A DNA stretch of 64,000 bases, from contig NZ_CP077062.1 in the NCBI RefSeq assembly GCF_019039255.1, positions 558,001 through 622,000 of the forward strand, read 5' to 3'. Under the pieces are notes generated by a model that saw only the letters and a program-made list of their open reading frames with translations, ran no database searches and was not told the origin of the DNA. The position numbers and the translations under genes were made by a program. The stretch comes from Nocardioides panacis. Lineage in GTDB: Bacteria; Actinomycetota; Actinomycetes; Propionibacteriales; Nocardioidaceae. Below are positions 6,518 to 24,428 of the stretch, one piece after another (position 1 is the stretch's first letter; the number at the start of each line of letters is the position of its first letter).

Positions 6518-8719
6518 TCAGGGGCGACCCCCGGCGTCAGCCGCGGGCACCAGTGCGAGCTCCACCGGCTCCAGCAGCCGCCGGACGCCCGAGCCGAGCA
6601 GCAGCTGGGCCCGCTCGAGCTCGACCGGACGCGACCAGAGGAAGCCCTGGCCCTGCTGCGAGCCGTTGCGGTGCAGCCAGCGGGCCTGCTCCACGAGCTC
6701 GATGCCCTCCGCGACCAGGACCAGGTTGAGCGCGGCGCTCATCGCGATGATCGCCTCGACCAGCGACGTGTCGTCCGACGCCCCGCCCAGCCGGTCGATG
6801 AAGGACTTGTCGACCTTGAGCACGTCGATCGGCAGCCGGGACAGGTGCGACAGCGAGCTGTAGCCGGTGCCGAAGTCGTCGATGGCCACCCGGATGCCGT
6901 GCGTCCGCAGCCGGCTCAGCGCGGTGACGGCGGAGTCGACGTCGGCGAGGAGCGCGGTCTCGGTGATCTCCAGGACCAGCCGGTCGGCGGGCAGGCCGCT
7001 GTCGGCGAGGGCGGCCAGGACCAGGTCCGCGAAGGCGGGGTCGGACAGCTGCTGGGACGCCACGTTGACGGCCATCGTGGGGCGGACCGCCCCGGCCTGC
7101 AGCTCCGCGCCGGCGGCGCAGGCCCTGCGCAGCACCCAGGTGCCGAGCGGGACGATCAGCCCGGACTGCTCGGCGACCGCGATGAAGTCGGCCGGTGGCA
7201 GCTGGCCCCGCTCCGGGTGGTTCCAGCGCACCAGTGCCTCGAAGCCGGTGATCTCCTGGGTGTCCAGGTCGACGGTGGGCTGGAAGTGCAGCACGAGCTG
7301 CTCCTGGGCCAGTGCCTGGCGCAGCTGGATCCGCACCGACAGCTCGTCCATCGCCCGGGCGTGCAGGCTGTGGTCGTAGACCGCGACGCTGCCCTTGCCC
7401 TGCTCCTTGGCGAGGTACATCGCGGCGTCGGCGTTGCGCATCAGCTCGACGTCGCCGAGCTCACCGGCGTGCGCGGTGGCGATGCCGATGCTGGCGCGCA
7501 CCGTGTGGGTGACGCCCTCGAGGTCGATCGGGTCGCCGAGCGCCAGCAGCAGGCGCTCGGCGATCAGTGCGGCGGCGGTCTCGTCGGTGTCCTCCAGCAG
7601 GACCGCGAACTCGTCGCCGCCGAGCCGGGCGGCCGTGTCGTGGTCCTCCAGCGCGCCCAGGATCCGCTCCGAGACGGTGACCAGCAGCCGGTCGCCGACA
7701 CCGTGCCCGAGCCCGTCGTTGACCAGCTTGAAGTCGTCCAGGTCGATGAAGAGGACGGCCAGGGCGGGGGCGTCGGGGCGGTGCAGCGCGTGCGCGAGCC
7801 GGTCGCGGAAGAGCTGCCGGTTCGCGAGTCCGGTCAGGGAGTCGTGGAAGGCCTGGTGCGTCAGCTCCTCCTGGAGCCGGGTGCGGTCGGTGACGTCGCG
7901 CAGGGTCAGCACCCAGCAGGCCACCGCGGTGTCGTCGCGCAGGTCGTTCAGGGTGCCCTCGACGACGAGCACGCGGCCGTCGGCGTGCCGCATCCGGATC
8001 GAGAGGTTGCGCTCGCGGTGCAGGCTGCCGGTGAGCAGCTGCACGAAGCCGGCGCGGTCGTCCTCGGCGACCAGGTCGACGACCCGGCGGCCGGTGAGCT
8101 CGTCGGCGGGGATGCCCAGCACGGCCTGGGACGCGGGGCTGACGAACGTCGCGGTGGAGTCGCCGTCCAGGGTCAGCACCACGTCGGCGCTGTTGTGCAC
8201 CAGCGCGGTCAGCCGGCGCTCCCCGGCGTCGACGACCTGCCGCTCGGTGAGCTCCCTCTGCACGGCGCGGTGCCGACGGGCCAGCCGGTTGAACCAGGTG
8301 AACCAGCCGATGCAGACGACCACGAACAGCCCGCCGACCAGCAGCACCACCGTGCGCCCGGTCGCGGCCTGCTCGGCGTCGATGGCGCGGCCGGTGGCGT
8401 CGAGTGCCGTCAGCAGGCGGGACCGGTCGCCGGCGTCGTACGTGCTCGTCCAGCGGCGGCCCAGGGCGGCGGCCCGGGCCGCACCCGGTGCGCCGGACTC
8501 GCCCAGCCCGGCCAGGGCGGAGCGGACCGGCGCGGGCGCCACGGCGGGGTCCGAGGCGGTCACGGCCGTGGTGGCCCGCACCCACGCGACGTGCTCGGCG
8601 TCCACGCGGTCGTCGAGGTGGTAGACGTGCAGCAGGAACCAGAACTCGCAGGCCAGGACGCCCAGCACGAGCACGAGCCGGACCGCGCGCTGCGGCACGC
8701 TCAACCCGCCGACCGCCAT
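6518..8719 (-). CDS. Membrane PAS-GGDEF-EAL cyclic-di-GMP protein
   Basis: A 733-aa protein from ATG 8717-8719 behind AAGGGG. It has membrane helix 1 (about 12-32), an extracytoplasmic segment of about 90 residues, helix 2 (about 124-143), a PAS domain (about 165-280), GGDEF (motif at 367-371) and EAL (motif at 494-496). The GGDEF signature is intact, so diguanylate cyclase activity is possible. The usual RxxD inhibitory site before it reads EDHD, so product feedback is probably lost. The EAL domain keeps ETAL and DDFGTGYSSL motifs and should be a phosphodiesterase. A bifunctional sensor of an unknown external or PAS-bound signal. Confidence 0.88.
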   Translation of the reverse strand: MAVGGLSVPQRAVRLVLVLGVLACEFWFLLHVYHLDDRVDAEHVAWVRATTAVTASDPAVAPAPVRSALAGLGESGAPGAARAAALGRRWTSTYDAGDRSRLLTALDATGRAIDAEQAATGRTVVLLVGGLFVVVCIGWFTWFNRLARRHRAVQRELTERQVVDAGERRLTALVHNSADVVLTLDGDSTATFVSPASQAVLGIPADELTGRRVVDLVAEDDRAGFVQLLTGSLHRERNLSIRMRHADGRVLVVEGTLNDLRDDTAVACWVLTLRDVTDRTRLQEELTHQAFHDSLTGLANRQLFRDRLAHALHRPDAPALAVLFIDLDDFKLVNDGLGHGVGDRLLVTVSERILGALEDHDTAARLGGDEFAVLLEDTDETAAALIAERLLLALGDPIDLEGVTHTVRASIGIATAHAGELGDVELMRNADAAMYLAKEQGKGSVAVYDHSLHARAMDELSVRIQLRQALAQEQLVLHFQPTVDLDTQEITGFEALVRWNHPERGQLPPADFIAVAEQSGLIVPLGTWVLRRACAAGAELQAGAVRPTMAVNVASQQLSDPAFADLVLAALADSGLPADRLVLEITETALLADVDSAVTALSRLRTHGIRVAIDDFGTGYSSLSHLSRLPIDVLKVDKSFIDRLGGASDDTSLVEAIIAMSAALNLVLVAEGIELVEQARWLHRNGSQQGQGFLWSRPVELERAQLLLGSGVRRLLEPVELALVPAADAGGRP

Positions 8720-14788: not shown

Positions 14789-17354
14789 TCAGGCCACCGA
14801 GCCGACGAGGACCTGCCCGAGTGCGATCCCGCCGTCGTTGGGCGGCAGCAGCCGCGGGCGCAGCACGGTGAACCCGTGCTCCTCCAGCTGCCGCACGCTG
14901 GTCGCCAGCAGCAGCGCGTTGGCGAACACGCCGCCGCCGAGCGCCACCACGTCCAGTCCCGTCGCGAGCCGCGACCGGCCGGCGAGCTCGACGACGAGCG
15001 CCGCGACGCCGGCGTGGAAGCGGGCCGCCACCCGCGCCGGGCCGGCGCCGCGGCGTACGTCGTCGACGACCGCGCGCACCACCGGGCCGGGGTCGGCCAC
15101 GACGGCGCCGTGCGGGTCCTCGACGAGCCCGAACGCGTACGGCGCCGCTGGCCCGTCGTACGCGCGGGCCAGGGCCTCCAGCCGCACCGCCGCCTCGGCC
15201 TCGTAGTCGCTGGTGTGCCGGACCCCGGTCAGCGACGAGACGGCGTCGAAGAGCCGCCCCATGCTGGAGGTCGGCACGCAGCCGAGCCCGGTGTCGAGCT
15301 GGTGCGCGAGCACGGACCGCTCGCGGTCGGGGCAGGCCGCGACCGCTGGCAGGTCCTCGGACCAGGGCACGCCCGCGGCCCGCAGGTGCGCCAGCGCCAT
15401 CCGGTAGGCGCGGCGCACGCTGGCGTCGCCGCCGGCCAGCGGGACGTAGCCGAGGTGCGCCGCCCGCCGGAGCTCCTTGTAGCCCGCGACCAGCACCTCA
15501 CCGCCCCAGATCGCGCCGTCGGTGCCGTAGCCGGTGCCGTCGAAGGCGACCCCGATCACCCGGTCGTCGAGGCCGAGGCCGTGCTCGCCCATCACCGAGG
15601 CGACGTGCGCGTGGTGGTGCTGCACGGTCCGCACCTCCCGCCCCTGGGCCCGCTCCCGGGCCCAGGCGGCCGAGCGGTAGCCTGGGTGCGCGTCGGTGAC
15701 CAGCCGGCCGGGCCGCACCCCGGTGAGCTCCTCGAGGTGCCGCTCGGTGCGGCCGAGCGCGTCCTGGGTGGCCAGGTCGTCGAGGTCCCCGACGTGCTGG
15801 CTGAGCCACGCGTAGCGCCCGGCCGCCAGCGCGCAGGTGTTCTTCAGGTCGGCCCCGGTCGCCAGCACCGGGTCGACCTCGAAGGGCAGGGCCACCGGCA
15901 GCGGTGCGTGACCGCGCGAGCGGCGCACCGGCAGCTCGGCGCCGGCCACCACGCGGGCGACCGAGTCGTCGCACGGCACCCGGATCGGCCGGTCGTGCAC
16001 CAGGAACGCGTCCGCGAGGTCCCCGAGCCGCTCGCGGGCCTCCGCGTCGTCGGTGACGATCGGCTCGCCGGACAGGTTGCCCGAGGTCATCACCAGCACG
16101 TCCGGCCCCGGGTCCCCGGCCTCCCCGAGCAGCAGCACGTGCAACGGCGTGTACGGAAGAAGGATCCCGAGGTCAGGTGACCCCGGCGCGACGCCCCCCG
16201 CGACGCCCCCCCTCCGAGTTGTCAGGCGGTGGATCGGTCCCGACCGAGTGAGCGCCTGACAACTCGGGGCGGGGGAGGAGGACGACGGGCTTGCGGGGGC
16301 CGGTGAGCAGCCCGCGCTCCGCCTCGGTCATCGACACCAGGCCCTCGGCCACGGCCAGGTCCCGGGCCATCACCGCGAACGGCTTGGCGCCGCGCTGCTT
16401 GCGCCGCCGCAGCTCGGCGACCGCGTCCTCGTTGCGGGCGTCGCAGGCCAGGTGGTAGCCGCCGAGCCCCTTGACCGCGACGACCTGCCCGTCCGCGAGC
16501 AGCTCCCGCGTCCGTCGTACGGCGGCGTCGCCGGTGTCGTGGATCCCCGGGCCGTCCAGGGCGAGCGTCGGGCCGCAGTCGGGGCAGGCGACCGGCTGCG
16601 CGTGGAACCGCCGGTCGCCGGGGTCGTCGTACTCCGCGCGGCAGGCGGCGCACATCTCGAACCCGGCCATCGTGGTGGCCGCCCGGTCGTAGGGCAGCGA
16701 GGTGATGATCGTGAAGCGCGGACCGCAGTTGGTGCAGGAGATGAACGGGTGCCGGTAGCGCCGGTCCAGCGGGTCGGCGAGCTCGGCCAGGCAGTCCTCG
16801 CACACCGCGACGTCCGGCGAGGCGAGCGTCCGTCCGGCGCCGCCGCTGCTGTCCTCGATGCTGAAGCCGGTGCCGCCACGGGTCGGCAGGTCGGTCTCGT
16901 GGAGCCCCTCGACCTCGGCGAGCGGCGGCGCGTCGTCGACCAGCCGGCGGCCGAAGACGTCGACGGCGTCGGGGTCGCCCTCGACCTCGACGACGACCCC
17001 GGAGGGGGTGTTGCACACCGAGCCGGCCAGCCCCAGCTCAGAGGCGGTGACGTAGACGAACGGCCGGAAGCCGACACCCTGCACGAGCCCGAACACGTCG
17101 TAGCGACGGCGCACCCGGGCGGCCCGGCCGCTGCCCATCAGCTGCAGGCCGCTCAGCGCGGTCCTGGCCGCCGCCTCGTCGATCGCCTCGACGGCGAAGC
17201 CCATGTGGATCAGCACCCAGTCGCCCGGTGCGGGCTGCGCCTCGAGCATCCCGACGTTCACCTGGCGCTGTGCGCCCTCGACGTCGACGAGCGCGACCTG
17301 GCCGGCGTAGCCGTCCGCGAGGGCCACGACCCGACCGGGGATGCCCAGGCACAT
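14789..17354 (-). CDS. hypF: HypC-HypF fusion, carbamoyltransferase (apparent frameshift)
   Basis: ATG 17352-17354 starts a complete HypC domain (MCLGIPGRVV to GLQLMG, about 75 aa). It continues without a stop into HypF: acylphosphatase domain (VFGLVQGVGFRPF), zinc fingers (CEDC...CTNC and CAAC...CPDC), a YrdC-like domain and a Kae1-like domain (LVMTSGNLSGEP onwards). HypF transfers carbamoyl from carbamoyl phosphate to HypE. The frame breaks in a run of seven C on the plus strand (about 16206-16212); one base fewer joins both halves through VAPGSPDLGILLPYTPLH. A 54-bp palindrome sits in frame just before the break. Corrected length is about 854 aa. The HypC-HypF junction has no homopolymer and may be real. 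Confidence 0.85.
16214..16267. repeat. 54-bp palindromic element inside hypF
   Basis: Perfect 15-bp arms (14 bp CGAGTTGTCAGGCG plus one flanking pair) enclose a loop that itself contains CGGTC-CC-GACCG. The total of 54 bp is 18 codons. It encodes a Pro/Asp-rich insert in a variable loop of the YrdC-like domain where HypF homologues have about 17 fewer residues. It looks like a small mobile palindrome that inserted without breaking the frame. No second copy was noticed in the window. Confidence 0.7.
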
Positions 17355-17355
17355 G

Positions 17356-17829
17356 TCAGGCCTCCTGCGGGACGTCGGCGCGCAGCAGCCGGTCGAGCAG
17401 CCGGTCCACGGTCTCCACCGCCCGGGGTACGGCGGCCGCGACGGCGGCACCGAGACCGATGCCGTCGGCCGTGGACGCGGGACGGCAGCCCACGACGTAG
17501 GTCGGGGGGAGCGTGCCGCCCAGGGTGCTCAGCGAGGCGAGCACCGCGACCGGGTTCATGCCGTGCGGGTCGAAGTCGTCGGCGCCCAGGTCGTCCGGCC
17601 CGACCTCGAGCACGGTGATCTCGCCGGGCTCGCCGTGCGGCACCGCGTCGACGATCACCAGGGCGTCGTACCCGTCCAGGAGGTCGTAGGCCAGGTGCAT
17701 GCCGCGGATGCCGTAGTCGACGACGCGGACGTCGTCGCCGGCGCGCGCGCCCATCCGGCGGACGACCTCGGGGCCGAAGCCGTCGTCGGAGCCGAACAGG
17801 TTGCCGATGCCGGCGACCAGGACCGTCAC
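17356..17829 (-). CDS. [NiFe] hydrogenase maturation protease
   Basis: A 157-aa HycI/HyaD-family endopeptidase, starting at GTG 17827-17829. It shows VLVAGIGNLFGSDDGFGPEV with the first metal-binding acidic residue, VIVDAVPHG with the second acidic ligand, and DPHGMNPV with the His ligand. It cleaves the C-terminal extension of the large subunit after nickel insertion; HhyL here carries a 22-residue extension after its last ligand. It is separated by 1 bp from the HypC-HypF gene, so it belongs to the same transcript. Length is normal. Confidence 0.9.
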   Translation of the reverse strand: MTVLVAGIGNLFGSDDGFGPEVVRRMGARAGDDVRVVDYGIRGMHLAYDLLDGYDALVIVDAVPHGEPGEITVLEVGPDDLGADDFDPHGMNPVAVLASLSTLGGTLPPTYVVGCRPASTADGIGLGAAVAAAVPRAVETVDRLLDRLLRADVPQEA

Positions 17830-17835
17830 GGCCGG

Positions 17836-17955
17836 CTACATCTGCCGCATGCGGAGGTACCGCTGCAGGTCCGGCACCGACTTCACCCCGGTCGCGGCGG
17901 CGGCCGCTGCCAGCGCCAGGACCACCAACGTGGTCAGCTTCCCGATCATCCTCAT
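17836..17955 (-). CDS. DUF6893-type small membrane protein, 39 aa
   Basis: ATG 17953-17955 overlaps the preceding stop by 4 bp and follows GGAGAG. The protein is MRMIGKL, one hydrophobic helix (TLVVLALAAAAAATGV), then a basic tail PDLQRYLRMRQM. This matches the DUF6893 small proteins I know from actinobacterial hydrogenase loci. A single membrane anchor with a cytoplasmic basic tail could tether the hydrogenase or its partner to the membrane, but that is inference. Its conserved place between unknown genes and the protease argues that it is translated. Confidence 0.75.
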   Translation of the reverse strand: MRMIGKLTTLVVLALAAAAAATGVKSVPDLQRYLRMRQM

Positions 17956-19274
17956 GGTCGGCTCTCCTCTCGTTCGGTGAGCGGTTCGATCTCGTCCGGT
18001 GCGAAGTAGCTGAAGCGGCCGTACCACTCGTGCAGGTCGGCGGCCGGGTCGTCCTCGAGCACCACCGCGACGTGGGTCCGGCCGTCCACGTCGAACAGCA
18101 CCCCGGTGACCCGGGCCGCCCGGTCGGCCAGGAACAGGTCCTGCGCGTCGGCCCGCCGCCGGGGGTGCAGCCGCACCCGGGTGCCCGCGCCGACCCGCAC
18201 CCCGTCGACCAGGACGGTGTCGGACCCCGGGTCGACCGAGGCGTCGGTGGCCGGGTCCCACCACGGCGGTGCGTCCGACCCGGCCGGGCCGTGCGGGTCG
18301 CGGAAGACGCCGTGCAGCTGCTGGAGCTCCGCCGGGGTCATCGCGTCGCAGCGGTCGATGAGCGCGGCCGCCCTGGGGTCGGTGGCCCGGGCCTCGGCCT
18401 TCTCGGCGTCGGTCATCGTCATCACCCGCAGCGTGAGGATCTCGTCGATCTCGGTGGCGTCGAACAGTGCCTGCGCGCTCTCCGCGGCGACCTGCGGGTG
18501 GTCGTAGAGGATGATCGGCGACCCGAGCAGGAGGTCGGTGTCGCCCTCGTCGCCCGCGAGGAACGGCCAGCAGCGGTCCTGGCGCAGCCCGTCGGCGATC
18601 GGGCGTGCCGCCGGCGGTGGGTCGACCATCGAGACGAAGCCGCAGCCGTCGGCCTCGACGAGCAGGTGGGCGCCGAGCAGCGACGTGCGCGTGGCGTCCT
18701 CGGGCGTCGCGGGCCGCTCCGGGTGGTCGTTGCGGACCGTCACCGAGAGCCGGGTGAACGGGCCGTGCCGCTCGGTGCCGACCGTGACGACCGCGCGCAG
18801 CGGCCGGCGGTGCCGCACCAGCGATCCGCCACCGGGCAGTGCCTCGACCTTTTCGCCGCCGTCGACGGTCACCGGGGTGTCGGGGACACCGCCGGCCGAG
18901 ACGTCGGCGCGCACCACGACCTCCTGCTCGACGGCCTCGTCCCAGGTGAGCTCGGTGTGGTCCCCGACCGGCAGGGACGCGACCTCCGTGCCGTGCGCGT
19001 CGAGGACCTGCCGGTGCTGGAGCTGCAGGAACCTGAGGTGCACGTCGACCGACGACCCGGCCCGGACGCCGGTGAGGATCGTGTGCAGGGTCAGGGTGTC
19101 CGGCTCGCCGAGCCCGCGGTCCGCCGCGCCGGGCGGGCCGAGGACGCCGAACTGCCACCGGGCGCGGTTCTTGTCGGAGCTGGCGCGGTAGGGGTAGAGG
19201 AGGTACCCCTCGTAGAGCACCGCGTCGGCGACGGTGCGGGCCCGCTGGAGCCGGTCGGCGGGGACGGGGCTCAC
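17952..19274 (-). CDS. Conserved unknown protein of hydrogenase locus, 440 aa
   Basis: I place the start at GTG 19272-19274, which overlaps the DUF6084 stop (once the frameshift is corrected) by 4 bp. It starts VSPVPADRLQRARTVADAVLYEGYLLYPYRAS and contains RWQFGVLGPP, a central beta-rich half and PPWWDPATDASVDPGSDTVL near the end, then a KOW/SH3-like beta segment (VRLHPRRR, VTGVLFDVDGRTHVAVVL). No Cys motif, signal peptide or membrane helix is seen, so it is probably cytoplasmic. The family is seen next to DUF6084 in hydrogenase loci, but no function is known to me. Its stop overlaps the DUF6893 start by 4 bp. Confidence 0.75.
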   Translation of the reverse strand: MSPVPADRLQRARTVADAVLYEGYLLYPYRASSDKNRARWQFGVLGPPGAADRGLGEPDTLTLHTILTGVRAGSSVDVHLRFLQLQHRQVLDAHGTEVASLPVGDHTELTWDEAVEQEVVVRADVSAGGVPDTPVTVDGGEKVEALPGGGSLVRHRRPLRAVVTVGTERHGPFTRLSVTVRNDHPERPATPEDATRTSLLGAHLLVEADGCGFVSMVDPPPAARPIADGLRQDRCWPFLAGDEGDTDLLLGSPIILYDHPQVAAESAQALFDATEIDEILTLRVMTMTDAEKAEARATDPRAAALIDRCDAMTPAELQQLHGVFRDPHGPAGSDAPPWWDPATDASVDPGSDTVLVDGVRVGAGTRVRLHPRRRADAQDLFLADRAARVTGVLFDVDGRTHVAVVLEDDPAADLHEWYGRFSYFAPDEIEPLTEREESRP

Positions 19275-19925
19275 GGCTGCTCGCCCCCCGACCGGGGAGG
19301 ACACCGCGCCGAGCAGCCGGCCGACGGTCTCCTCCCACGACACGAGACCGTGCCGGGCGCGGTAGTCGCCGAGCGCCGCCAGCACGTCGTGGTCGAGACG
19401 GATCCATCCCTGGTGCGGGAAGAAGGTGGCGATCATGTCCTGCCAGACGCGCACCGGCAGGTCGTGGCGCGCCTCGCTGTCCCAGGGCACCTGCAGCACC
19501 CCGAAGCCGTGCTCGCCGCGGGTGAACACCGTGCCGCTGAACAGCAGGCTCAACGGCAGCGTGCCGGAGCCGACGCCGTGCAGCAGCCGCGACCCGGTCA
19601 CGTCGAAGTCGTAGGTGCAGGGCAGCGCGAGGTCGACCTCGGTGGCGCCGGTGAACCCCTGGACCGTGGTGTGGCACTGCATCCACTGGAACGGCTTGAG
19701 CGTCTGCGGCCAGCGCGCCCGGTCGCCGAACAGCGCGCGCAGCCCGGCCTCGTCGGCCTCGTCGTAGCCGCGCCGCTGGGGTTCGATGCGGACCTGGCAG
19801 CGCAGCGCCATCGCGTGCACCTGCACCCCGGTGCTCTCCTCGATCCGCAGCCGGGCGGTCAGCTCGGGGGTCGCGGCGTACGGCGTCGGGGCGACGTCGA
19901 GCACCCGGAAGGTCCACTCGCTCAC
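19271..19925 (-). CDS. DUF6084 family protein (apparent frameshift)
   Basis: GTG 19923-19925 overlaps the DUF5947 stop by 4 bp. The protein begins SEWTFRVLDVAPTPYAATPEL and contains LRCQVRIEPQRRGYD and PFQWMQCHTTVQGFTG, recognisable as DUF6084. As written it reads straight into the next gene. Removing one base of the six-C run at 19284-19289 gives an ending GGEQP and a TGA at 19271-19273, in a GTGA overlap with the next start, exactly like the neighbouring junctions. About 217 aa after correction. Function unknown; found with hydrogenase genes. Confidence 0.75.
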
Positions 19926-20563
19926 GGGTGGGCCTCCCCGGGCCGGCTCCGGTCGTCGACCTTCGCGAAGAACTCCTCCAGGGCCACCCGGGCCTCCTGG
20001 CCGCCGTCGAACCCGCGCCAGGTCTGCCGCATCCGGCCGACCAGCTCGTAGCAGGCGTCGATCGGGACGACGTGGCAGCTGAAGCCCTCGTCCTCCCGCG
20101 TGCCCCGGACCAGCAGCGCCTCCACGTCGGGCAGCACCGTGGCCAGGCCGGGGTTGGCGGCCAGCACCCGCTCCCAGGCGGTGAGCGACAGCTCGGACTC
20201 GGTGGCACCCGCGGGCCCGGGGTAGAACGCCACGACCCGGTCCTGGGCCGAGTTGCGGAACAGGAACGCAAGCCCGACCGGGATCTGCAGCTCGTCCCAG
20301 TCGGCCCGGTCGAGTCGGAAGCCGGGGAACGCGAGGTAGCGGTCCGGCACCGCGCGGTAGCGCATCTCGGCGTGCTGGTCGGTGAACAGCAGGTAGCAGG
20401 GCCGGCAGGTGCACATCAGCCCGCGGCCCACGACGTCGACGACGTGCGGGTGCTCCTCGGCGACCGGGGCGCTGCACATCTCGCAGCGCTCGCCGGCCTC
20501 CACCGGGCGGCGGGTCTGGCTGATCCGGCGCAGCGTGCCGAGCTGCGCCCGGCCGCTGCTCAT
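19922..20563 (-). CDS. DUF5947 family zinc-finger-like protein
   Basis: A 213-aa protein from ATG 20561-20563, overlapping the upstream stop by 4 bp. The N-terminus carries a probable metal site: Cys27 and Cys30 (ERCEMC) with Cys51, Cys53 and Cys56 (CTCRPC). The rest (IPVGLAFLFRNSAQDRVVAFYPGPAGATES) is alpha/beta and typical of DUF5947. The family occurs in hydrogenase operons; a role in assembly or electron transfer is inferred only from position. Confidence 0.8.
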   Translation of the reverse strand: MSSGRAQLGTLRRISQTRRPVEAGERCEMCSAPVAEEHPHVVDVVGRGLMCTCRPCYLLFTDQHAEMRYRAVPDRYLAFPGFRLDRADWDELQIPVGLAFLFRNSAQDRVVAFYPGPAGATESELSLTAWERVLAANPGLATVLPDVEALLVRGTREDEGFSCHVVPIDACYELVGRMRQTWRGFDGGQEARVALEEFFAKVDDRSRPGEAHP

Positions 20564-21531
20564 GCGCCGACCGTCGTCGGGACGGCGACCGCGACCGTGC
20601 CGGCCTCGGCCAGCAGCGGGAACGGGTCCAGGTGCAGGTCGGCCGCGTCCAGGCAGGCGCCCGCGCGTCGTACGTCGTAGTGCGCGCCGCAGGCGGGGCA
20701 GGTGAGCACCGCGTCCCCGGCCGTGCCGCCGAGCCGTCGCACCGGCAGCGCGCCCGCCAGGCTGCCGGCGCACCGTGCGCAGCCGTCCCGGAACGCGAAC
20801 AGGTCCGGGCCGACCCGGCACACGAACAACGCGGTGTCCCCGGCGGTCGTGGTGGAGCCCTGTCCGGACGCGAGGCCGACGGCGGCGGGCAGCGTATGCC
20901 AGGTCGCGCCGGCTCCCGCGTCCGGTGTCCCGAGCTCGATCCGGGTGCGCAGGGCCTCGACCGGGATCAGCGTCCCGGTGGCCGGGACGGTGGTGGGTGA
21001 CGCCACCTCGATCGAGGTGATCTCGGGGGCGGCGGCCTCGAGCGCGTCCCGGACCGCGAGCTCGAGGGTGACCGACGAGGACGGGCAGCCGTCGCAGGAC
21101 CCGAGCAGCCGCAGGCGTACGGCGCCCGTGTCGCTCACCGCGAGCAGCTCCACGTCGCCGCCGTGGCTGCCGAGGTAGGGCCGCACCTCGTCCAGGGCGC
21201 GCTCGACGCGGGTGCGCACGTCGTACGGGTGGAGGCCGTGCACCAGCAGCAGGCTGGCGACCAGCTCGTCGCCGGCCAGCCGGCCGAGCAGCTCCTCGTC
21301 GAGCCGGCCGCTGTCGTGGACGATCTCCAGCAGCCGCTCGAGCCCGGCGCCGTACAGGTCGGTGACCGCGCGGACCAGGTCCTCGGCGCGCTCGCGGGCC
21401 CGGGCCGGGTTCGCGGGGCCGGCGCCCGCGAGCGCGTCGATCAGCGCGTCGATGCGCTCGCCGGTCCGCCGCAGGTCGGGCGGCGCGACGTCGTCGGCCG
21501 GTGCGGTCGGGTCCGGGGGCGCCTGGTGCAT
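20560..21531 (-). CDS. NifU-domain/four-Cys redox protein (HhyE-like)
   Basis: A 323-aa protein with three parts: a helical N-terminal half, a NifU C-terminal-type domain (GSHGGDVELLAV, CDGCPSS with Cys146 and Cys149) and a C-terminal ferredoxin-like domain. The last resembles the Rieske-type domain of HhyE proteins but has CARC (251, 254) and CPAC (278, 281) in place of the Cys-His pairs. It sits directly after the large subunit. In mycobacteria a related iron-sulfur protein has been proposed to pass electrons from Hhy towards the respiratory chain. Gap to hhyL is 10 bp; its stop overlaps the DUF5947 start by 4 bp. Confidence 0.82.
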   Translation of the reverse strand: MHQAPPDPTAPADDVAPPDLRRTGERIDALIDALAGAGPANPARARERAEDLVRAVTDLYGAGLERLLEIVHDSGRLDEELLGRLAGDELVASLLLVHGLHPYDVRTRVERALDEVRPYLGSHGGDVELLAVSDTGAVRLRLLGSCDGCPSSSVTLELAVRDALEAAAPEITSIEVASPTTVPATGTLIPVEALRTRIELGTPDAGAGATWHTLPAAVGLASGQGSTTTAGDTALFVCRVGPDLFAFRDGCARCAGSLAGALPVRRLGGTAGDAVLTCPACGAHYDVRRAGACLDAADLHLDPFPLLAEAGTVAVAVPTTVGA

Positions 21532-21541
21532 GGCCGCCCGC

Positions 21542-23335
21542 TCAGCCGACGCCGGCGGACTGGGTCGGCGTGTGCAGCAGCTCGATCTTCTTCCCGTCGC
21601 CGAGGTACATGTGCACCCCGCAGGGCAGGCACGGGTCGAAGCTGCGCACCGTGCGCATGATGTCGATGCCCTTGAAGTGCTCCCGGTCGTTCTCCTCGAA
21701 GATCGGCTGTCCCTGCACGGCGTCCTCGTAGGGGCCCGGGGTGCCGTAGGAGTCCCGCGGGTTCGCGTTCCACGGGGTCGGCGGGTAGGGGTGGTAGTTC
21801 GCGATCTTCCCGTCCCGGATCACCAGGTGGTGCGAGAGCACGCCGCGCACCGCCTCGGTGAACCCGCAGCCGATGCCGTCGGTGGGCACCTCGAACTTCT
21901 CCCACGTCTTCGTGCGGCCCGCCCGGATCTCGACCAGCGCCTTCTCGGCGAAGTGCAGCGCGGCGGCCGCGGCGTACGCCTGGAAGTAGGTGCGGGCCCG
22001 GTCGCGCTCGATGGTGTTGCTCCACCGCGGGACCTTCCACTCCAGCTCGACCGGTCCCTTCAGCGCCGTCTTGGGCAGGTTGATCCTCACGCTGCTGCCG
22101 GTCGACTGCACGTAGCCGATGTCCACCAGGCCGGCCAGTGCCGTGACCCAGAGCCGGGCGAGCGGTCCGCCGCCGGTGTCGAGCGCGAGGTAGTCCGTGC
22201 CGTCGTACCAGCGCGGCGACATCACCCAGGAGTACTTGTCGTCCAGGTCGCGCTTCTGCGGCCGGGGGTTGGTGTGCTGGTTCCACGGGTGCCGCCGGTC
22301 GACCGGGTTGCCGAGCGGGTCGTGGGTCACGAACATCTCCTGGTCCTGCCAGTCGTCGTAGTACGACGAGCCGAGCAGGATCCGGATGCCGAGGTTGATC
22401 TCGACGAGGTCCGTGGTGACCAGCCGGCCGTCCACCACGACGCCGGGGGTGACGTACATCGCCCGGCCCCAGCGGGTCATGTCCTGGTAGTCGAAGTTGC
22501 ACACGTCCGGGTCCTGGAACGAGCCCCAGCAGCCGAGCAGGATCCGCCGGTTGCCGACCTCCTCGTAGCCGGGCAGCGCCTCGTAGAAGAAGTCGAAGAG
22601 GTCGTCGTGCATCGGCACGACCTTCTTCATGAACTCCACGTAGCGCATCAGCCGGGTGATGTAGTCGGTCATCAGCTGGATCGTCGCGACGGTGCCCACG
22701 CCGCCCGGGTAGAGCGTCGAGGGGTGCACGTGGCGCCCCTCCATCAGGCAGAACATCTCGCGGGTGTAGCGGCTGACCTGGAGGGCCTCGCGGTAGAACT
22801 CCCCGGTGAACGGGTTCAGCGCCCGCATGATGTCGCCGATCGTCCGGTACCCGTGCGCGGCGGCCTGGGGGGCCTCGGTGGCGTTCGCCCGCTCGAGGAC
22901 GCCGGGGTTGGTCTCGGCGACCATCCGCTCGCAGAAGTCCACCCCGACCAGGTTCTCCTGGAAGATGTTGTGGTCGAACATGTACTCCGCGGCCTCGCCC
23001 AGGTTGACGATCCACTCGCCGATCGCCGGTGGCTTCACGCCGTACGCCATGTTCTGCGCGTAGCAGGAGCAGGTCGCGTGGTTGTCCCCGCAGATCCCGC
23101 AGATCCGGCTGGTGATGAAGTGCGCGTCGCGCGGGTCCTTGCCCTTCATGAAGATCGAGTAGCCCCGGAAGATCGAGCTGGTGCTGTGGCACTCGGCGAC
23201 CTTCATGTTCCCGAAGTCGATCTTGGTGTAGATGCCGAGCGAGCCCACGATCCGGGTGATCGGGTCCCAGGCCATCTCGGTCAGGCCCTTGTCGTCCGTG
23301 GTGAACGTGCTGGGGCTGGGGATGGTCGACGTCAT
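21542..23335 (-). CDS. hhyL: [NiFe] hydrogenase large subunit, group 1h
   Basis: A 597-aa catalytic subunit oxidising H2. The nickel ligands are in RICGICGDNHATC (Cys79, Cys82) and DPCLPCGVH (Cys569, Cys572, His575), followed by a 22-residue extension removed by the maturation protease. The sequence (NPFTGEFYREALQVSRYTREMF, within limits quoted as LNPFTGEFYREALQV) is characteristic of group 1h, the actinobacterial high-affinity, oxygen-insensitive enzymes that scavenge atmospheric H2 during starvation. ATG 23333-23335 lies 37 bp after the small-subunit stop. Intact. Confidence 0.97.
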   Translation of the reverse strand: MTSTIPSPSTFTTDDKGLTEMAWDPITRIVGSLGIYTKIDFGNMKVAECHSTSSIFRGYSIFMKGKDPRDAHFITSRICGICGDNHATCSCYAQNMAYGVKPPAIGEWIVNLGEAAEYMFDHNIFQENLVGVDFCERMVAETNPGVLERANATEAPQAAAHGYRTIGDIMRALNPFTGEFYREALQVSRYTREMFCLMEGRHVHPSTLYPGGVGTVATIQLMTDYITRLMRYVEFMKKVVPMHDDLFDFFYEALPGYEEVGNRRILLGCWGSFQDPDVCNFDYQDMTRWGRAMYVTPGVVVDGRLVTTDLVEINLGIRILLGSSYYDDWQDQEMFVTHDPLGNPVDRRHPWNQHTNPRPQKRDLDDKYSWVMSPRWYDGTDYLALDTGGGPLARLWVTALAGLVDIGYVQSTGSSVRINLPKTALKGPVELEWKVPRWSNTIERDRARTYFQAYAAAAALHFAEKALVEIRAGRTKTWEKFEVPTDGIGCGFTEAVRGVLSHHLVIRDGKIANYHPYPPTPWNANPRDSYGTPGPYEDAVQGQPIFEENDREHFKGIDIMRTVRSFDPCLPCGVHMYLGDGKKIELLHTPTQSAGVG

Positions 23336-23372: not shown

Positions 23373-24428
23373 TCACCAGGTCCGAGTCGCGCCGGTGGTG
23401 AGCCGCGGGCCCTTGGTGCGCCACTTCGGCTCCTTGTCGAGGGTCTGCGTGGTGACGCCGCGCAGCCTCTTGATGGTCTTGCCGTAGAGCCCGACCGCGT
23501 TGGTGGAGAGCTTCCCGCCGGGCGGCTCGTCCATGAACGGCATGAACTTGTCGGGGAAGCCGGGCATCGTGCAGCCGATGCAGATGCCGCCCACGTTGGG
23601 GCAGCCGCCCATGCCGTTGATCCACCCCCGCTTGGGCACGTTGCACTTCACCACCGGCCCCCAGCAGCCGAGCTTCACGATGCACTTGGGGGAGCCGTAC
23701 TCCGTCGCGAAGTCGGCCTGCTCGTAGTAGCCGGCCCGGTCGCAGCCCTCGTGCACGGTGCTACCGAACAGCCACGTGGGTCGGAGCGCGTCGTCGAGCG
23801 GGATCATCGGCGCCTGTCCGGTGGCCATGTAGAGCAGGTAGGTCAGCGTCTCGGACAGGTTGTCGGGCTGGATCGGGCAGCCGGGCACGCAGACGATCGG
23901 GATGTCGGCCTTGGACTTCCACCCCCAGCCCAGGTAGTCGGGCACCCCCATCGCGCCGGTCGGGTTGCCCTGCATGGCGTGGATGCCGCCGTACGTCGCG
24001 CAGGTGCCGACCGCGACGACGGCCGTCGCCTTGGGGGCCAGCCGGTCGAGCCACTCGCTGGTGGTCATCGGCTGCCCGGTCATCGGGTCGTTGCCGAACC
24101 CGCACCAGTAGCCCTCGTCGTGCAGCTTCTCGTTGGGGATGGACCCCTCGACGACCAGCACGAACGGCTCGAGCTCGCCCCGGTCGGCCTTGAAGAACCA
24201 CTCCAGGAAGTCGTCGGCACCGCCGGTCGGGCCGCACTCGAAGTCGATCAGCGGCCAGTGCACGGCCACCTGCGGGAGCCCCGGGAGGGCGCCGAGCGCG
24301 ATCTCCTCGATGCTGGGCTGCGTCGCCGCGGTCAGCGCGACGGAGTCACCGTCACAGCTGAGACCGGCGTTGATCCACAGGACGTGGATGAGTGTCTGCT
24401 CCGCTTGCACTGCCTCGGCTGTTGGCAT
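23373..24428 (-). CDS. hhyS: [NiFe] hydrogenase small subunit, group 1h
   Basis: A 351-aa electron-transfer subunit with three FeS clusters. It has no Tat signal peptide, as normal for group 1h. The proximal-cluster motif reads LSCDGDS: Cys25 is followed by Asp28 where standard hydrogenases have Cys, matching the three-Cys/one-Asp proximal cluster described for the Ralstonia actinobacterial-type enzyme. Further ligands are in GTCATYGG, VPGCPIQPDN, HEGCDRAGYY, LGCWGPVVKC and CPNVGGICIGC. GGAGAG precedes ATG 24426-24428. A 150-bp gap to hypB, larger than any other in the locus, probably holds a promoter for the structural genes. Confidence 0.97.
   Translation of the reverse strand: MPTAEAVQAEQTLIHVLWINAGLSCDGDSVALTAATQPSIEEIALGALPGLPQVAVHWPLIDFECGPTGGADDFLEWFFKADRGELEPFVLVVEGSIPNEKLHDEGYWCGFGNDPMTGQPMTTSEWLDRLAPKATAVVAVGTCATYGGIHAMQGNPTGAMGVPDYLGWGWKSKADIPIVCVPGCPIQPDNLSETLTYLLYMATGQAPMIPLDDALRPTWLFGSTVHEGCDRAGYYEQADFATEYGSPKCIVKLGCWGPVVKCNVPKRGWINGMGGCPNVGGICIGCTMPGFPDKFMPFMDEPPGGKLSTNAVGLYGKTIKRLRGVTTQTLDKEPKWRTKGPRLTTGATRTW

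Follow-up and report, generated by a model that had tools for sequence, protein, structure and literature searches.

A gene block accompanying group 1h [NiFe] hydrogenases as a candidate electron-exit and membrane-docking unit: the hhy locus of Nocardioides panacis

By what route do electrons leave a group 1h [NiFe] hydrogenase (Hhy) that has no cytochrome b? About half of atmospheric H2 is hypothesised to be turned over biologically through high-affinity [NiFe] hydrogenases (PMC7174314); in 2019 the path of electrons from Hhy into the respiratory chain was described as unresolved (PMC6883350), and according to a 2026 paper the membrane interactions of the enzyme are still to be elucidated (PMC13332983). 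We address the question through a stretch of 64,000 nucleotides from Nocardioides panacis (contig NZ_CP077062.1, positions 558,001 to 622,000 of the forward strand; hereafter the window), which carries an hhy locus. On its minus strand DUF5947, DUF6084, a 440-amino-acid (aa) protein and the very small DUF6893 are encoded between a NifU/Rieske-like gene and the gene for a hydrogenase maturation protease. Their distribution identifies the first three as a dedicated accessory block of group 1h hydrogenases, to which DUF6893 adds a further small membrane component. We tentatively read the block as an Hhy-specific electron exit and membrane-docking unit, a reading to which we give a probability of about 0.45.

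The class of the enzyme follows from its large subunit. HhyL matches HofG of Cupriavidus necator (5aa5) with 1095 bits, the only Protein Data Bank (PDB) match at E ≤ 1e-100, and bears both large-subunit motifs quoted for group 1h in PMC5364354, TSRICGICGDNH and SFDPCLPCGVH; by these sequence features it is a group 1h [NiFe] hydrogenase. No hydrogenase cytochrome b was found in the genome, where the best Ni_hydr_CYTB match reaches 20.6 bits against a cut-off of 30.1 and lies outside the window.

Co-occurrence of the block with HhyL was followed in a phylum draw of 296 genomes and a class draw of 207 genomes, which share genomes and are not independent; the results are plain counts without a significance test. 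In the phylum draw, DUF5947 was found in 26 genomes, DUF6084 in 27 and the 440-aa part in 28, while DUF5947 and DUF6084 were found in none of 14 control genomes. HhyL-like matches occurred in 150 of the 296, most of those listed matching other hydrogenases weakly or in part, and a threshold of at least 500 aa at no less than 65% identity retained 24 genomes. DUF5947 is present in 23 of the 24, the exception (G042) having repetitive sequence in its place, and so is the 440-aa part, the same genome being excepted because its contig ends there; DUF6084 is present in 22 (exceptions G128 and G171). Seen from the other side, 23 of 27 places with DUF5947 adjoin a whole or partial HhyL and four lie at a contig end. 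The class draw, with HhyL accepted at E ≤ 1e-100 (best match 71-100% identity), gave HhyL in 38 genomes and DUF5947 in 39: all 38 HhyL genomes carry DUF5947, on the same contig and separated from HhyL by 530-1358 base pairs (bp), and the only occurrence among the other 169 (G537) is a decayed hhy locus in which an HhyS remnant, the NifU-like gene and DUF5947 are left and HhyL is gone. The repetitive stretch of G042 is of low complexity and runs from about 7960 to 8261 of locus L157, between the NifU-like gene and DUF6084.

Plasmids gave the same picture. The same 12 records, among them same-strain or same-species pairs, hold a 1h HhyL (72.9-87.1%), DUF5947 and the 440-aa part, and neither of the latter two was found at E ≤ 1e-5 in 112 further plasmid records with hydrogenase matches. 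A scan of genome contigs with one DUF5947 sequence returned eight loci, all actinobacterial, other phyla being reached only through two proteobacterial plasmid species; in these eight named loci hhyL, DUF6084 and the 440-aa part are always present and DUF6893 is present in seven. The 657-aa protein of the window, in which DUF6084 and the 440-aa part share a frame, has matches in 13 of the 81 genomes of a family draw. An earlier, sequence-only reading of this DNA had called for a comparison with hhyL across actinobacteria; the association holds, and a distribution of these families mostly away from hydrogenases was looked for and not seen.

The block is found with group 1h and not with its sister enzymes. 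We fetched 12 sister-hydrogenase loci, chosen from the sister matches listed and not all of them, with HhyL identities of 38-44% (L211 has a second large-subunit copy at 34%). DUF5947, DUF6084, the 440-aa parts and DUF6893 are absent from all 12 at E ≤ 0.1; a NifU-like protein is present in ten and a protease in 11, and in the two loci without NifU (L210, L213) the sequence breaks off at a contig end. We call these enzymes only "sister", because their identity as group 2a Huc was not supported: L205, the sole one tested, had HofG (E 1.5e-153) as its only PDB match at 1e-60. The NifU-like gene of L212, L214 and L215 lies on the strand opposite the large subunit. A tree of 49 large subunits, its root placed by the sister rows, unites the 36 group 1h rows in one clade (100/100), and 34 of these carry DUF5947; the other two are L157, from which it is missing, and L161, a locus truncated by its contig. 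DUF5947, DUF6084 and the 440-aa part are already carried by the earliest-branching 1h rows (L153-L156), among which DUF6893 is not recognisable in L153 and L154, while L155 and L156 are cut before its expected place. HhyE, in turn, is long (over 240 of 288 profile columns) in 19 loci and not in 15; the long form comes and goes in the tree, and DUF5947 is kept either way.

No function is named for any of the block families in Pfam, NCBIfam or the portions of the literature available, where the match to a DUF name concerned aurodox. The feature that stands out is the Cys/His pattern of DUF5947, CxxC-x7-HxH-x10-CxCxxC, each of whose seven Cys/His positions is kept in 39 or 40 of 40 sequences; the rest of the protein models as an alpha/beta domain. 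DUF6084 is modelled as a beta sandwich with helices, its predicted local distance difference test (pLDDT) score being mostly 80-95 over residues 1-160. The model resembles LEA14-type sandwiches (Z 9.2, root-mean-square deviation (rmsd) 3.2, 128 residues), and we read it only as a beta sandwich because transglutaminase and Kir sandwiches also score near 7. The 440-aa protein is predicted to consist of an immunoglobulin (Ig)-like beta-sandwich part, with the conserved YEGYLLYPYRAS..KN..RW, and an SH3-like barrel, which lies in another frame than the N-terminal part in seven of 38 loci and had no Pfam match in three sequences. The placement of the domains relative to each other in the 657-aa model is unreliable (predicted template modelling score 0.43). 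Weak Pfam matches to Phage_TAC_7, Phage_tail_X, DUF3303 and CCDC92 were below cut-off and were set aside.

The DUF6893 of the window reaches 55.3 bits with Pfam PF21833 (gathering score 24.6). Among 31 frames compared, 29 have 32-40 codons, all contain RY and 30 end in Met, giving a tail of the form RY...M-COOH; each has one hydrophobic stretch, and the tail has a net charge of +1 to +5, from which we surmise that it is cytosolic. A loose Shine-Dalgarno match precedes 30 of the 31, a pattern that often arises by chance in GC-rich DNA. Of the 34 tree loci that have both hhyL and DUF5947, 23 show a recognisable DUF6893. The 11 misses include three loci truncated by a contig end (L139, L155, L156) and one, L128, whose copy has diverged. 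Above the family cut-off there are 30 places in the 296 genomes and none in the 14 controls. Twenty-one of these accompany the block. Seven have a HypC-family or protease gene as neighbour, either in an hhy locus that is decayed or cut or next to a HypC-like paralogue; one is on a short contig where no hydrogenase gene was recognised, and one, probably a chance match, is inside a 795-codon frame.

Such a protein may escape annotation. We rejected the idea that C. necator lacks DUF6893, since a frame of 33 codons that carries the same tail was found past the protease on pHG1 (L127 13642-13743; NC_005241.1 about 66753-66854); this frame is missing from the PLSDB gene table, which is incomplete. 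Likewise, a looser search found a diverged copy in the same place in Methylocystis parvus, which disposed of its supposed absence from Methylocystis. DUF6893 was not found named in the accessible parts of the literature, including work on 1h membrane proteins, and it may be an overlooked part of the group 1h system. The decayed hhy locus L196 (G150) has HhyS fragments and a 440-aa remnant and keeps DUF6893, protease and HypC. In L149 (G140) the protease is flanked by two DUF6893 copies, and L198 and L202 hold a DUF6893 paralogue with the tail PDFQRYxQLRDM; it adjoins a HypC-like paralogue, and a long protein that has no Pfam match is encoded nearby.

If the block is indeed an electron exit and docking unit, HhyL would split H2, and the HhyS clusters would hand the electrons to the NifU-like HhyE, from which they would reach DUF5947 and the metal centre presumed in its Cys/His site. 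The complex would be held together by the 440-aa protein, through its Ig-like part and SH3-like barrel, and by the beta sandwich of DUF6084, and the putatively cytosolic tail of DUF6893 would anchor it at the membrane, close to the quinone pool. We favour this scheme because of the association with group 1h, the near-invariant Cys/His site, the variable HhyE, the conserved single-helix protein and the lack of a cytochrome b above cut-off; a link of the block to membrane and quinone, as the sequence-only reading had suggested, is plausible. The block offers a small candidate set for Hhy electron coupling, with defined residues, and a tiny protein that annotation may miss. A bolder version, in which DUF5947 is a new redox protein with a C2H2C3 metal site and the obligatory electron exit of 1h enzymes, and DUF6893 a widespread RY...M microprotein tether that docks the complex, we regard as unlikely; were it true, the route from H2 to quinone would be unlike both cytochrome b and HucM.

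Several observations weigh against the electron-exit scheme. Metal binding, the type of metal, electron transfer, complex formation, tethering and the orientation of the tail are all things that we infer, and a structural zinc site could account for the Cys/His pattern just as well. The cysteine region of DUF5947 is modelled at low confidence, the fold search with this protein gave no convincing match (best Foldseek E 0.043; best Z 3.2), and sequence searches of the PDB with it and with the 657-aa protein gave nothing below E 0.03. A three-row clade (L130, L148, L150) lacks DUF6084 and DUF6893 and has its 440-aa gene upstream of hhyS. DUF6893 persists by hyp genes where the hydrogenase has been lost or was never seen, which points to maturation. 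Finally, the 1h enzyme of Methylacidiphilum fumariolicum SolV is membrane-associated, and homologues of the hypothetical proteins are stated not to be encoded in this strain (PMC7174314).

Some of these points suit a different explanation, in which the proteins are Hhy-specific maturation or assembly factors that guard or place iron-sulfur or NiFe cofactors in air and leave the finished enzyme, with DUF6893 bringing maturation to the membrane. Their role would then be comparable to that of HoxORTV/HupGHIJK of the membrane-bound hydrogenases. This is quite possible, and we keep it close behind: the block adjoins protease and hyp genes, DUF6893 survives in loci where no hydrogenase is intact, and one clade does without DUF6084 and DUF6893. 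The block genes directly precede the protease and HypC, all seven off-block DUF6893 copies noted above adjoin HypC-family or protease genes, and the want of a clear PDB sequence relative for DUF5947 and the 657-aa protein also fits; assembly roles for iron-sulfur proteins are allowed for by Islam 2019, who cite a rubredoxin-related maturation protein (PMC6883350). Maturation has difficulties of its own, however, as the sister hydrogenases have a protease and a NifU-like protein of their own and manage without the block, and the SolV enzyme, devoid of the hypothetical proteins, is reportedly active (PMC7174314). The block might instead be a structural scaffold that oligomerises and positions Hhy, as HucM does for Huc, carrying no electrons and with structural zinc in DUF5947. 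HucM was itself an uncharacterised operon protein that proved to be such a scaffold, and the modelled beta sandwiches and SH3-like barrel of DUF6084 and the 440-aa protein are common interaction folds; the Thermomicrobium roseum hydrogenase, however, ran slightly below dimer size on published native gels (PMC6776052), and we consider a pure scaffold improbable.

The features of the window are collected in the table. The placing of DUF5947, DUF6084 and DUF6893 between the redox protein and the protease of a 1h locus, as first read from the sequence, agrees with Pfam matches and coordinates, and the Cys-rich character of DUF5947, the single helix of DUF6893 and the lack of a known function for any of the families were likewise borne out. 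The succession of 4-bp overlaps that was claimed for the four genes stands at 20563 (ATGA), 19925 (GTGA) and 17955 (ATGA) and fails at the junction of DUF6084 with the 440-aa protein: a GTGA is present at 19274, yet its TGA is out of frame, and the two share a single 657-aa frame, so that four overlapping genes are rejected for the window. The protease starts 6 bp past the end of DUF6893, from the coordinates.

Table. Features of the hhy locus of Nocardioides panacis (positions in the window)
Feature	Position	Strand	Remark
HhyS, hydrogenase small subunit	23373..24428	-	without twin-arginine motif at N-terminus (by eye)
HhyL, group 1h large subunit	21542..23335	-	motifs TSRICGICGDNH and SFDPCLPCGVH
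HhyE, NifU-like domain and C-terminal Rieske/rubredoxin-like part	20560..21531	-	Rieske_2 match below Pfam cut-off
DUF5947, 213 aa	19922..20563	-	Pfam E 5.4e-76; CxxC-x7-HxH-x10-CxCxxC at residues 27-56
DUF6084 domain, residues 1-207 of 657-aa frame	19305..19925	-	Pfam E 7.4e-88; predicted beta sandwich
Single 657-aa frame joining DUF6084 and 440-aa protein	17952..19925	-	open frame; unusual
N-terminal part of "440-aa" protein	18297..19241	-	conserved YEGYLLYPYRAS..KN..RWQ..
C-terminal SH3-like barrel of "440-aa" protein	17979..18230	-	predicted fold
DUF6893, 39 aa, one hydrophobic helix and conserved tail (here VPDLQRYLRMRQM)	17836..17955	-	Pfam E 6.5e-15
Hydrogenase maturation protease	17356..17829	-	starts 6 bp past DUF6893
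HypC fused in frame to N-terminal part of HypF	16173..17354	-	frame broken at 50-bp repeat
C-terminal part of HypF, in another frame	14789..16144	-	second of the two hypF frames

The common frame of DUF6084 and the 440-aa part occurs in the window only, among 39 examined loci with both parts. In relatives of the same genus (G356, G340) and the same family (G335, G353) the DUF6084 frame stops before the 440-aa protein, and a run of six G (GGGGGG) lies at the join, just upstream of 19274, where a one-base change or an assembly error (homopolymer miscount) may explain the frame equally well. Because of the single occurrence in 39 loci, the split relatives and the G run, we rejected the fusion as evidence of interaction. 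A second irregularity concerns hypF. The genome has a single HypF zinc-finger pair, in the hhy locus, where the gene is in two frames separated by a 50-bp palindromic repeat at 16216-16265 (GAGTTGTCAGGCG...CGCCTGACAACTC), the arms of which occur at seven places in the genome. Since this repeat interrupts the only hypF, the hydrogenase of N. panacis may be inactive, and high-affinity H2 oxidation in air by this strain is doubtful.

The idea that this is an undescribed system did not survive comparison with the literature: conserved hypothetical proteins specific to 1h loci, and a proposed electron-acceptor role for PHG067, had already been published. That the three block genes are companions of group 1h is already known; the Cys/His site of DUF5947 and the tail of DUF6893 are what is seen here. 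In C. necator, PHG066-069 are described as unknown open reading frames by hofKG and the PHG070 protease (PMC4377017), and PHG067-069 are, by position, DUF5947, DUF6084 and the 440-aa protein, PHG067 being DUF5947. Islam 2019 noted that MSMEG_2717 of Mycobacterium smegmatis is homologous to PHG067, the electron acceptor proposed by Schafer 2013, and named it as a candidate; in that species deletion of hhyE or hucE lowered H2 oxidation and the double deletion abolished it (PMC6883350). Conserved hypotheticals named hhaABC are reported from the 1h operon of T. roseum (PMC6776052), and three highly conserved "HP" proteins specific to group 1h/5 from acidobacterial 1h operons, citing Greening 2015b (PMC5900883). 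The SolV 1h operon is described as having two other membrane proteins (PMC7174314).

The closest parallel is C. necator H16 pHG1, which has the same order of small subunit, large subunit, NifU-like protein, DUF5947, DUF6084, a 476-aa protein and protease. It differs from the window in that two separate genes encode DUF6084 and the 440-aa homologue, DUF6893 comes after the protease and the NifU-like protein is short (192 aa). In M. smegmatis, MSMEG_2718-2717 are HhyE and the next gene, the PHG067 homologue. The hhaABC genes (trd_1876-1874) and the acidobacterial "HP" genes are likewise conserved hypotheticals of 1h operons, compared here by position, number and description; on these grounds, the DUF5947/DUF6084/440-aa block is probably hhaABC. 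The SH3-like barrel of the 440-aa protein resembles PetP of the cyanobacterial cytochrome b6f complex (7r0w; Z 7.3, rmsd 2.4, 63 residues; Z range 7.3-7.4, below the caution level of 8), with NusG at 6.5. HucM (MSMEG_2261) of the group 2a enzyme Huc, also operon-encoded and once uncharacterised, links its hydrogenase to membrane quinone; it differs in its 188 aa, its place upstream of hucS and its C-terminal coiled-coil tube, so that the likeness to the block is one of role only.

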